This document shows positions 60,552 through 64,000 of a stretch of 64,000 bases of DNA, piece by piece. The stretch comes from Streptomyces sp. NBC_00102. Its GTDB lineage: Bacteria; Actinomycetota; Actinomycetes; Streptomycetales; Streptomycetaceae. Position 1 is the first letter of the stretch; each line of letters opens with the position of its first letter. The stretch is from contig NZ_JAPEMC010000001.1 of assembly GCF_026343115.1 (NCBI RefSeq), forward strand, positions 2,046,001-2,110,000, read 5' to 3'. Below the pieces are notes generated by a model, which was given only the letters and a program-made list of their open reading frames with translations, was not told the DNA's origin and did not search any database. The position numbers and the translations under genes are program-made.

Positions 60552-60624
60552 GTGGGTATAGCTCAGATGGTAGAGCACCTGGTTGTGGTCCAGGATGTCG
60601 CGGGTTCGAGTCCCGTTACTCACC
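60552..60624 (+). tRNA. tRNA-His (anticodon GTG)
   Basis: The cloverleaf folds fully: acceptor GTGGGTA with TACTCAC, D arm from GCTCAGATGGTAGAGC, anticodon stem CCTGG/CCAGG with loop TTGTGGT giving anticodon GTG at 60585-60587, and T arm with GGGTTCGAGTCCC. A G at -1 (60551) and a C discriminator fit histidine tRNA. No CCA is encoded. Integrase follows 113 bp downstream, making its 3' end a likely attachment site. Confidence 0.95.
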
Positions 60625-60630
60625 CTTGAA
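60590..60630 (+). other. Candidate att site (attL) in the 3' half of tRNA-His
   Basis: The tRNA 3' half is intact and directly abuts a tyrosine integrase gene, the usual arrangement after integration of an actinomycete element. The other end with the duplicate 3' segment is not in the window, so the core length cannot be read. Confidence 0.45.
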
Positions 60631-60633
60631 GGG

Positions 60634-60671
60634 GAAGCCCCTGATCTGCGGAAACGCGGGTCGGGGGCTTC
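60634..60671 (+). terminator. Hairpin after tRNA-His
   Basis: GAAGCCCCTGA (60634-60644) pairs with TCGGGGGCTTC (60661-60671) with one wobble around a 16-base loop, ten bases past the tRNA. Confidence 0.6.
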
Positions 60672-60736
60672 TTCGTGTTCCGGGCTGGCCAAACCGCGGC
60701 CAAACGCGGCCGGATTTTCGACCTACCGTCTGCGCC

Positions 60737-61996
60737 ATGGCAACGATCAGGGAGCGGGTCCGCAAGGACGGTACGGCGAGTTTCCAGGTCCGCTGGCTCC
60801 AGGGAGGGCGCGGCGGCACCTGGGAGGCCGAGAGGTTCGAGGACCCCGAGCAGGCGGACACGTTCAGGAAGCTCGTCGACGCCCACAAGCAGCAGTGGCC
60901 CTACGGGTGGGTTCCCGGCCAGGGCTTCGTCGAGCCCGAGCAGGACCCCGACGACGTGCCCCTGACCGACTGGGCCCGGCGCTACGTCGACCGGCTCACC
61001 GGTATCGACCCGCGGACCCGGGACGACTACCGGCGCGAGGTGGACCGGCACATCTCCCTCATGGTGCACACCACCCGATCGGGACTGGTGATGCCGGCCA
61101 CGATCGGGAACATCACCGCTGACGACGTCCAGGACTGGGTTCGGCTTCAGGAAGCGGGCCAGCCGGACGCGAAGCCAGGGCAGTGGGTCCGTCGACCGGC
61201 CTCGCCGAAGTCCACAGCCAATCGACACGGCCTGCTGTGGTGCATCGTGCAGGCGGCGATCGATGCCGATCCCCCACTGCGCACCAAGAACTGCTGCGCG
61301 AACACCCGCCTTCCTCGTGTCGACTACGGGACGTCCGAGGAGATGGTCTTCCTGGAGCAGGAGGAGTACCAACTCCTCCGCAAGCACCTCACCGACCCTG
61401 CGGCGCGAGACCTCGCCGACTGGCTGATCGGTACCGGCATGCGGTGGGGCGAGGCTACGGCTCTCCAGGTACAAGATCTTCGGCTGGGCGGCCCCAGGCC
61501 GACAGTCAACGTCCAGAGGGCCTGGAAGAGGTCGCCCAGGGGCGCGCAGACCTCGTTCTTCCTCGGGCCCCCGAAGACGAGGAAAGCGCGCCGTCTGGTC
61601 GCCCTCGCCCCGACGCAGGTGGACCTTGCCCGGAGGCTGAAGCAGGGGATGCCACCGGAGGCGTTCCTCTTCCGCACGCCGACGGGCAAGGCATGGAGGC
61701 ATTCCAACTTCTACAACCGGAAATGGATACCCGCCGTCGCTGCCGCGATGGAGACCGGCCTCCCCCGCCGGCCTCGGATCCACGACCTGCGGCACAGCCA
61801 CGTCGCCTGGCTGGTGGCCGCGAACATCCCTCTGCCGGCGATCCAGGCCCGGCTGGGCCACGAGTCGATCCAGACCACGATCGACCGCTACGGTCACCTG
61901 GCCCGGTCGCTCGACTCGGACATCAGTGCCGCCGTGCAGGCAGCCATGGGAAGCCGCCCGCCGTCTGATCACGGCCTGCGGTTGGTCAGCGCTTGA
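60737..61996 (+). CDS. Tyrosine recombinase (phage-type site-specific integrase)
   Basis: 419 residues from ATG 60737; the frame opens to 60626 but that part would read through the tRNA terminator. The N-terminal arm-binding region (MATIRERVRKDGTASFQVRW) resembles the AP2-like three-strand domain. The SAM-like core-binding part is about 70-180. The catalytic residues are Arg236 (GTGMRWGEATAL), HDLRHSH (349-355, with Arg352), His375 (LGHESIQTT) and the nucleophile Tyr385 (DRYGHLA). It should integrate and excise the element at the adjacent tRNA-His. No excisionase is recognised in the visible part. Confidence 0.93.
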   Translation: MATIRERVRKDGTASFQVRWLQGGRGGTWEAERFEDPEQADTFRKLVDAHKQQWPYGWVPGQGFVEPEQDPDDVPLTDWARRYVDRLTGIDPRTRDDYRREVDRHISLMVHTTRSGLVMPATIGNITADDVQDWVRLQEAGQPDAKPGQWVRRPASPKSTANRHGLLWCIVQAAIDADPPLRTKNCCANTRLPRVDYGTSEEMVFLEQEEYQLLRKHLTDPAARDLADWLIGTGMRWGEATALQVQDLRLGGPRPTVNVQRAWKRSPRGAQTSFFLGPPKTRKARRLVALAPTQVDLARRLKQGMPPEAFLFRTPTGKAWRHSNFYNRKWIPAVAAAMETGLPRRPRIHDLRHSHVAWLVAANIPLPAIQARLGHESIQTTIDRYGHLARSLDSDISAAVQAAMGSRPPSDHGLRLVSA

Positions 61997-62054: not shown

Positions 62055-64000
62055 TCAGGATGCGTCGTCGCTGCTCTCCTCTGCTGCCTCGGTTTCGAAG
62101 CTGACACCGCGGTACTCCGGGTGGTTGCGGTCGACCGCGCCTGCGACGTGGAGGGGGACTGGATGGCGAGTACGGGCGTCCCAGGCGAGGGACTGGTGAC
62201 AGAGTGCGGCAGCTAGCGCAGCCAGGTCCTGTGGTTGGTGGCCGTCCGGCCGAGGCACGGTGATCTGGGTCGCCGTAAAGCTGTGCCAGTCCTTACGGAG
62301 CAAAGCCTTTTGAAGCTCTTGGGGGATGGTGAATCGGGTACATGTGCTGCCGTTGGTACTGGTCTGGCCAAAACCGTCGTAGGTGCGTGACTTCTGGGCG
62401 AGATACCAACTGGTGACCTCAGTGCCTGCCGTGGTGCGCTCATACAGCCAGTCGTCGGGTGCGGCGGGGCGCTCTGGATCACGGCGCCGGGCGTTGGAGC
62501 GATCGACTGGGGTGGGAACCTCGCCGTACGACGTGTTGATGCTGACGACGGCGATCGGGCGGCCGTCGTCGTCAAGGCCGTCTCCTGGGAGAGGGCCGTT
62601 GCCGAGCTGGGCGTGTTGCAACCCAGACCAGATGGTCCGGCAGGCTTCGGTATCCACGAAGATGACGAGCGGGGTCTGAGCGGGCAGGATGCGCAGCGCC
62701 GCCTTGACATGCTCGCGGACCAGCCCTGCGCCCTCCTTATGGCGGGCGTGTCCTTCCATACCGATCGGTCCAGCACCGAAGGCGGACTCCCCTTGCGGAA
62801 GAGGCTGCCAGGAGTGTGTATGGCGGTTGTACATCTCCATGCGCCAGGGCTGCTGCGGATCCGGGTGTGTGTGAAGGGCGGTGAGAACTTCGACCATCTG
62901 GGTCTTGTTGGCAGCTCCGAATGCCTTGGTACTGACACGCTGTTGGCGCAGGTGCAGGCCGACAAGGATCATGGGACGGTCCAGGGGGACGCCGTGGGCG
63001 AGGCGTCCATCGACCGCTCCGAGACGCAGGAACAGATCGCGAAGTCCGTTGATAGCCGGGTAGTCCACCCGCGGACGGGTTCGCTTGGGCTTTGCGCCGT
63101 CCGCGTTGTCCTCAATGGCCGTTTCACCGTTGGCGTTTTCGGCCTGCGCCAAGAGTTCGAGTTCGACTTCCAGCGCCTGGGGGTCCAGGGCCTGCGTTGC
63201 CTCGGCCGCATCTTCCAGCTTGGGGGGCTTGGGCCGAGGGAGCTGGGCGATGAACTGGGAGACCATGCCACGCCGGTGAAAGTGCCTGCGAAGGTCGCGT
63301 TTCGGGTCGTAGCGGTCCGGGGTCTGGCCTCGGCGAGGGGTGCGCTTCCTTGGATTCCAGATCGTCTCGACCCAAACGCCGGTGAGGGCGGTGCCGTCCA
63401 GGTCAGAGAGGAAGGCGAGTTCCACGTCCCAGTCGACGGGAGTGGGAGAGACCAGCGCTGGCATACGATGGAGGCGGACGAACAGTCGTTCGGTGAGTTG
63501 GTGATCGTGGTTGTCGTCCCAGTCCGCTGCCTGCGCCGGTTCTTCGAGGTAGGGGGTCAGGGCGGTGATCATACGTTCGCGGGTGTACTCGTCGTCGTAG
63601 AGGGCGAGTACGCGGACCTGATCGTGACCTGTCCCACTCAGTGCCTGGTCGAGGTCCTCCCGTACGACCGGCCCCTCCGTGGTGCGCGTTACCTCGACAT
63701 CGGTGCGCTCATACGCGACCTGTTCAACGCCGAGCTTGGCGGCTGCCTTCTTGATGTGGTTGGCGAGGTAGAGGTTGAAGCGGGTTCCGGTGCCCTTGCC
63801 GAGCGGATGCTCGGTCGGGCCGGGGACCAGAGCGCGCACCGGGCCTTCCATGGTGGCCAGCGTCTCGTTGGTGCCGAGGTCGATGGCCTCAAGCTTGCAT
63901 GCCTCCACAACCTGTGCGGCGAAGTTTCGCGTGTAGGGCTCCCAGCCCTCATCAGTGCGGCGGTGGCCGACGGGCAGGCGCAGCACGGTGTCCTTGCCGC
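62055..64000 (-). CDS. pPIWI_RE-type (PIWI/RNase H-like) protein, N-terminus beyond the window
   Basis: The minus-strand frame is still open at base 64000, so about 648 C-terminal residues are seen and the start lies outside. The distal part has the features I associate with the RNaseH/PIWI domain of the prokaryotic pPIWI_RE family: GLRDLFLRLGAVD, the strand PLVIFVDTEACRTIWSGLQ (near 62655), WLYERTTAGTEVTSWYLAQ, and near the end DARTRHPVPLHVAGAVDRNHPEYR, like the TPxPLHxA block of that family. The middle is acidic and low in complexity (about 63100-63200). Family members are about 900-1000 residues, are found with a helicase and a REase-like gene, and are proposed to target invading nucleic acid. 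Identification is by eye. Confidence 0.65.
   Translation of the reverse strand, partial: GKDTVLRLPVGHRRTDEGWEPYTRNFAAQVVEACKLEAIDLGTNETLATMEGPVRALVPGPTEHPLGKGTGTRFNLYLANHIKKAAAKLGVEQVAYERTDVEVTRTTEGPVVREDLDQALSGTGHDQVRVLALYDDEYTRERMITALTPYLEEPAQAADWDDNHDHQLTERLFVRLHRMPALVSPTPVDWDVELAFLSDLDGTALTGVWVETIWNPRKRTPRRGQTPDRYDPKRDLRRHFHRRGMVSQFIAQLPRPKPPKLEDAAEATQALDPQALEVELELLAQAENANGETAIEDNADGAKPKRTRPRVDYPAINGLRDLFLRLGAVDGRLAHGVPLDRPMILVGLHLRQQRVSTKAFGAANKTQMVEVLTALHTHPDPQQPWRMEMYNRHTHSWQPLPQGESAFGAGPIGMEGHARHKEGAGLVREHVKAALRILPAQTPLVIFVDTEACRTIWSGLQHAQLGNGPLPGDGLDDDGRPIAVVSINTSYGEVPTPVDRSNARRRDPERPAAPDDWLYERTTAGTEVTSWYLAQKSRTYDGFGQTSTNGSTCTRFTIPQELQKALLRKDWHSFTATQITVPRPDGHQPQDLAALAAALCHQSLAWDARTRHPVPLHVAGAVDRNHPEYRGVSFETEAAEESSDDAS

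Follow-up and report, generated by a model that had tools for sequence, protein, structure and literature searches.

The DNA examined here raises the question of whether a long minus-strand reading frame, found directly behind an integrase gene at a tRNA-His, encodes a member of the pPIWI_RE (PIWI-RE) family, and whether it is carried with its partner genes on a mobile element. The window, the whole stretch of 64,000 nucleotides that was analysed, corresponds to positions 2046001-2110000 of contig NZ_JAPEMC010000001.1 from the 8.6-Mb genome of Streptomyces sp. NBC_00102. Parts to the right of the window are described in extended coordinates, obtained as contig position minus 2,046,000. The family, the gene order REase - DinG - pPIWI_RE with overlapping ends, and a role in defence were predicted in 2013 by Burroughs, Iyer and Aravind, as set out in the account in PMC3702460, and it is to this prediction that the view of the cassette as an immune system belongs.

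The initial annotation, made from the nucleotide sequence alone, had identified the frame at 62055..64000 as a pPIWI_RE gene lying immediately behind an integrase at tRNA-His, and both points are borne out (Table 1). The part of the ORF inside the window (62055-63998, minus strand, open at the window end) matched the Pfam family RNaseH_pPIWI_RE (PF13032) with an E-value of 2.3e-55 and 188.9 bits (cut-off 25), and the PADLOC model PprPIWI with an E-value of 3.7e-54; a search of NCBIfam with the same part returned zero family matches. Extension past position 64000 recovered the N-terminus and gave an intact ORF of 897 amino acids. The full protein contains the family domain (PF13032, 187.9 bits, cut-off 25) together with an N-terminal pPIWI_RE_X domain (PF13111, E-value 8.5e-27, 94.7 bits, cut-off 30.5), and the MID model PF18157 scored 23.8 bits, under its cut-off of 26.6. 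The profile matches and the intact 897-residue frame rule out a chance ORF or a frame artefact.

The DinG-like helicase and the REase-fold protein that the initial annotation had expected were both found directly upstream of the pPIWI_RE gene. The three genes run in the order REase, DinG, pPIWI_RE with overlapping ends and constitute a complete three-gene pPIWI_RE set in the order published in 2013. The first gene encodes a Y domain, a Zn ribbon and a REase domain, in which the CxxC...C...H ribbon and residues D304 and D319xK321 are the same in all 12 Streptomyces rows. The second encodes a DinG-type SF2 helicase, whose Walker A motif GxGK (380-383), DExD motif (585-588) and four candidate Fe-S cysteines (476, 498, 521 and 527) are invariant in all 14 Streptomyces rows; these residue numbers follow the 1239-residue ORF, and subtraction of 125 gives the numbering in the 1114-residue protein.

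Table 1. Features of the locus and of the tRNA-His element; "extended" marks coordinates on the extended window.
Feature	Coordinates	Strand	Evidence or remark
tRNA-His (GTG anticodon), attachment gene	60552..60625	+	ARAGORN and Rfam; insertion leaves gene whole
attL	60603..60631	+	29-bp core: final 23 bases of tRNA-His and 6 more; exact attR copy beyond window
Tyrosine integrase	60626..61996	+	PF00589 E 1.1e-15; PHROG phrog_1 E 3.4e-52
pPIWI_RE gene	62055-64748 (extended)	-	Window (62055..64000) has C-terminal 647 of 897 aa
Q828 codon (CAG), place of family-naming glutamate	62265..62267	-	Alignments
S736 codon (AGC), place of family-naming arginine	62541..62543	-	Alignments
D699 codon, inferred place of other catalytic Asp named for PsPIWI-RE	62652..62654	-	Alignment
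H599 codon, inferred place of first RNase H aspartate	62952..62954	-	85-row alignment
DinG-type helicase	64742-68086 (extended)	-	1114 aa from GTG at 68086; PprDinG E 3.9e-109
Y/Zn-ribbon/REase protein	68083-69246 (extended)	-	387 aa; PF18154 E 2.9e-15, PF18156 E 8.5e-7
hsdM	69745-71502 (extended)	+	Profile matches
hsdS	71499-72746 (extended)	+	Profile matches
hsdR	72746-75880 (extended)	+	Profile matches
Transposase pair, HTH and rve core	76719-77971 (extended)	+	Pfam
P-loop ATPase ORF, shortened	77977-78360 (extended)	-	About half the length of relatives in L072, L148
Phage-type replication initiator	78315-79334 (extended)	-	phrog_1408 E 2.1e-27
Excisionase-like HTH protein	96986-97270 (extended)	+	phrog_1840 E 1.5e-14; PF12728
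attR	98821-98849 (extended)		Exact repeat, 38,218 bases right of attL

The cassette and the integrase lie within a bounded 38.2-kb element inserted at tRNA-His that lies largely beyond the window. As in tRNA-integrated elements, the integrase gene stands beside the tRNA gene, and copies of the tRNA 3' end lie in direct orientation on both sides. The integrase ORF spans 456 residues from a TTG codon, an internal ATG near 60737 being the likelier start. The integrase and excisionase-like genes occupy opposite ends of the element, and in a circular form the excisionase-like gene would be followed by the integrase gene across the joined att site. The inverted repeat after attR, read by eye, looks like a terminator.

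The type I restriction-modification (R-M) genes hsdM-hsdS-hsdR are divergent from the pPIWI_RE cassette. The transposase pair, which we take to be IS3-like, is followed by the shortened ATPase ORF and the replication initiator. The element also carries regulators, and its cargo at 81603-92608 (extended), comprising glycosyltransferases, two epimerases, a PhyH-type dioxygenase and a short-chain dehydrogenase, resembles a sugar or surface-modification cluster. A prophage with structural genes was considered and rejected: in agreement with the initial annotation, phage structural genes numbered zero among the element ORFs scanned with Pfam and PHROG, some small ORFs lying outside the scan. An FtsK-like transfer gene is a feature of actinomycete integrative and conjugative elements (AICEs); the Pfam scan of the element, again with some small ORFs outside it, showed none, and the element is perhaps eroded.

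Integration at tRNA-His, which the initial annotation had also proposed, is supported both by the 29-bp att repeat and by comparison with relatives. In all seven genomes read around tRNA-His (L065-L071) the element is absent from the same tRNA gene, the sole trace of an element gene being a 57-residue integrase-like stretch in L065. A lacI-type gene, located at 108322 in our genome, lies less than 0.2 kb past tRNA-His in L069 and L070 and comes after other DNA, about 4.7 to 6.8 kb long, in L065, L066 and L067; it was not found in place in the tRNA-His region read in L068 and L071. In our genome a further 9.5 kb separates attR from this gene. Because the extra DNA between tRNA-His or attR and the lacI-type gene differs between genomes, the tRNA-His interval is variable. 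The segment 98850-108320 (extended) holds trypsin-like, PknG-like kinase, VWA and solute-binding protein genes, which are absent near tRNA-His in the seven relatives.

The PIWI-RE name derives from an arginine and a glutamate described in PMC3702460 as absolutely conserved, and the protein encoded here carries S736 and Q828 in their places. In an alignment of 85 rows, which are non-redundant by their last 300 residues only, so that near-copies remain, and which come mostly from a search started from eight proteins with R and E, and so biased towards such members, the arginine is present in 79 rows and the glutamate in 78. The five intact members of the clade to which our protein belongs have neither: the residues at the R and E places are S and Q in our protein, T and Q in NZ_CP108307, and A and Q in G372, G145 and NZ_CP108116. 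The remaining exceptions are L141, with a change from E to G, and the truncated row of L154. Partial copies agree with the clade, L100 having A and Q and the remnants in G262 and G390 having Q.

Two smaller alignments gave the same picture. In the first, of 14 rows, 11 columns were invariant over the 11 non-clade rows, including one R and one E, and of these 11 columns the three clade rows differ at the R and E columns only. In the second, eight proteins encoded on plasmids of Cyanobacteria, Alpha- and Betaproteobacteria and Bacteroidota were added as a check on the R/E places; the 19 non-clade rows, from four phyla, had R in 19 of 19 at the arginine column and E in 17 and D in two at the glutamate column, and the clade rows differ at both. 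W440, in the MID region, is a third clade-wide change, with W in all five clade members (our protein and the same place in L005, L006, L097 and L098) and R in all 19 non-clade rows, and could mean altered guide handling.

What is new here, as judged from the aligned sequences, is that the arginine and glutamate naming the family are both gone in our protein's clade. Their joint loss fits the predicted salt bridge between them, as one event with no independent repeats. The literature searched on pPIWI_RE and PIWI-RE, which covered sources other than preprints, contained no report of members without R and E.

The R and E places in our protein were assigned by cross-phylum conservation together with order and spacing, and the protein of Pseudomonas stutzeri was compared by spacing only. 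The D-D, D-R and R-E spacings of the P. stutzeri protein (85, 29 and 79) are all shorter than those of the compared set (98-108, 37-49 and 87-102), which counts slightly against an exact residue match; its E-to-end distance of approximately 66 falls inside the 59-91 of the set.

The RNase H catalytic tetrad of our protein is incomplete, with H599 at the inferred place of the first aspartate; at this place, positioned by alignment and predicted strands, D occurs in 0 of 85 rows, one row having a gap. Since the first RNase H aspartate is absent by alignment, the PIWI domain probably binds without cutting; the motifs of the REase and helicase partners are intact. The MID residues K483 and Q498 are conserved in all 24 rows, which span four phyla, and may act in guide binding. 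An AlphaFold model of 647 residues was of middling quality, with a mean pLDDT of 66.4, a pTM of 0.69 and 217 of the 647 residues under 50; the S736 block had a pLDDT of 91 and the Q828 block 66. The model aligns with Argonautes over model residues 24-630, and the PDB matches to the predicted structure include RsAgo chains at about 11-12% identity, so the protein is predicted to have an Argonaute fold. Solved structures searched by sequence gave nothing relevant.

In a quick tree of 84 rows, calculated with both R/E columns masked and L154 left out, the five intact RE-less proteins form one side of a branch with an SH-aLRT of 100, making a single origin the simplest reading; the branches are long where the clade joins L080/L081, and the row of our protein is long. 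The clade lacks R and E yet groups among family proteins, and it is for this reason called derived and atypical of the family. The dN/dS ratio was 0.39 to 0.43 in the four comparisons that involve our protein, where dS is about 1, and 0.13 to 0.25 in the six that pair the other four clade members with one another. The ratio is below 1 in all ten pairs, and the clade proteins are thus being retained. C-terminal remnants of the clade in two other same-genus genomes (L086:12338-12630, about 83-85% identical, and L087:9228-9467, 66%) suggest earlier loss of such cassettes. G372, a 12-Mb assembly with an estimated contamination of approximately 4%, contains two pPIWI_RE loci (L005 and L078) that belong to separate clades, one of them RE-less and the other R/E-bearing.

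Matches to the pPIWI protein at E-values up to 1e-3, with fragments and our own genome counted, were obtained in 49 of 392 same-genus genomes, three of which hold intact members of our clade as judged by identity. Across the phylum 4 of 198 genomes matched, all from the same genus, and among control genomes 0 of 14. Our protein finds 13 of 72,556 plasmid records, all Streptomyces, including the linear plasmids NZ_CP108307 and NZ_CP108116, on which intact clade members lie in three-gene cassettes; other pPIWI_RE queries reach plasmids of further phyla. No relative was found in the phage records or in two scans of viral contigs. A rep/HTH pair like that of the element occurs near the pPIWI_RE loci L072, L148 and L171 (G372, S. 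stelliscabiei and S. caniscabiei), and the pPIWI proteins of S. stelliscabiei and S. caniscabiei belong to a different clade from ours.

The neighbourhoods gave weak evidence for a standing pairing with type I R-M and showed no general association with tRNA genes. hsdM-like ORFs were present in five of 101 stretches, a set that includes stretches without an intact cassette and was searched with insensitive single phmmer queries, and three of the five (L111, L154 and L167) have hsdM, hsdS and hsdR. Given this low count, the co-carriage of type I R-M may be accidental. A tRNA was present in 2 of the 60 genome-contig loci scanned (of 76) and in 3 of 15 other stretches. Integrase-like ORFs were detected by phmmer in 3 of the 101 stretches; with PF00589, the G145 cassette lies approximately 12 kb from an integrase, and the nearest on the G372 contig is approximately 45 kb away.

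Unusual architectures were observed outside the genus. On three alphaproteobacterial plasmids from Bradyrhizobium, Azospirillum and Microvirga (L185:7389-13197, L188:5893-14805 and L189:5251-14130), pPIWI_RE occupies the N-terminal third of proteins annotated at about 3,100 to 3,400 residues, with WYL-domain regulators annotated beside all three cassettes; the giant protein from Azospirillum, the only one of the three scanned, gave a weak AAA domain match well downstream. In Hymenobacter sp. 5414T-23 (L192:4673-7593) the pPIWI_RE protein is annotated as a 534-residue RNaseH-domain protein after two small ORFs, and the gene is perhaps split.

The cassette shares its three genes, their domains, their order and their overlapping ends with the 2013 system as presented in PMC3702460, and differs from it in having S and Q for R and E and in lying next to type I R-M genes within a tRNA-His element bounded by att sites. 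PsPIWI-RE from P. stutzeri, the only characterised member found, is of the same family and operon type, and the first 4 nt of its gene belong to the upstream dinG, according to the account in PMC10991935. PsPIWI-RE cuts, and has catalytic D525 and D610 together with R639 and E718, whereas by order and spacing our protein has H599 at the first Asp place and lacks R and E. The R639A and E718A variants are described there as cutting like wild type, so the R-E pair is dispensable for catalysis in P. stutzeri. Deletion of PsPIWI-RE led to greater ciprofloxacin sensitivity and is tied in PMC10991935 to cell division rather than to phage defence. With long prokaryotic Argonautes, among them RsAgo, which PMC10991935 cites as a protein that binds but does not cut, our protein shares the predicted Argonaute fold and the lack of a complete catalytic tetrad; in contrast to RsAgo, to which it is about 11-12% identical, it has its own N-terminal X domain and dedicated helicase and REase partners.

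The reading that we consider reasonably probable is that a three-gene pPIWI_RE restriction cassette of the RE-less clade, carried as cargo of the tRNA-His element, performs guide- or hybrid-sensing restriction; the guide loading, the target, the division of labour and the protection are what we infer. The pPIWI protein would load a short guide strand through the MID pocket; on an invading genome undergoing active transcription or replication, it would recognise a DNA-RNA hybrid or complementary DNA. Without the first RNase H aspartate it would make no cut itself and would recruit the DinG-type helicase, which would open the hybrid, and the REase protein, which would cut the DNA. The adjoining type I R-M genes would add modification-based restriction, and the element is thus proposed to bring two restriction kinds. 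This cargo may protect the host, the element or both. In its favour are the partner profiles and published gene order, the conserved helicase, REase and MID residues, the predicted Argonaute fold with its missing first aspartate, the att repeat with integrase and excisionase-like genes at either end, the low dN/dS ratios and the occurrence of the clade on two linear plasmids. Counting against this reading are the MID profile score under its cut-off, the clade-wide change of R to W in the MID region, the rarity of type I R-M genes beside other pPIWI_RE loci, the cutting activity of PsPIWI-RE and its tie to cell division.

The last of these points bears on a housekeeping role, in which the cassette, as has been suggested for the PIWI-RE of P. 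stutzeri, would resolve R-loops or help the element or host to replicate or divide. The ciprofloxacin-sensitive knockout and the cell-division link are consistent with such a role, as are the action of DinG helicases on R-loops, as told in PMC3702460, and the replication initiator of the element itself. The patchy occurrence across the genus, the phylum and the controls argues against it, and the presence of such cassettes on plasmids, and of this one on an integrated element next to type I R-M genes, suits conflict better; we regard housekeeping as unlikely. The location of close relatives on large linear Streptomyces plasmids, and the element-like rep/HTH pair near three further pPIWI_RE loci, would suit a cassette that mainly guards its element by excluding rival plasmids and integrative elements rather than phages, but the same facts fit phage defence, and we give this explanation a rather low probability. 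It is most improbable that the cassette is decaying cargo, with the R/E loss and the IS insertion marking its loss of function. The IS-type transposase does lie beside a shortened ATPase gene, and clade remnants occur in G262 and G390; against this, the three overlapping ORFs are intact, the helicase and nuclease motifs are kept, and the R/E loss is common to five intact proteins of a single well-supported clade with dN/dS well below 1 in ten pairs.

A bolder reading of the RE-less clade as a distinct branch of the family is conceivable, although we hold it only tentatively and think it doubtful. The salt bridge, supposed to be obligatory in the family, would have given way to an uncharged pair and, with no PIWI cutting residues, the protein would have become a pure guide- or hybrid-sensing platform for the helicase and REase, spread on Streptomyces linear plasmids and tRNA elements as an inter-element weapon.

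Since 2013 the three-gene pPIWI_RE cassette has stood as a prediction, and the literature searched on pPIWI_RE and PIWI-RE yielded one predicted model and one biochemical study, with no test of the three proteins together found. The present locus provides, in a genus amenable to experiment, a cassette that is intact and naturally bounded. The RE-less clade constitutes a natural experiment in which both defining residues are changed, one that fits the predicted coupling of R and E and probes the purpose of the pair.
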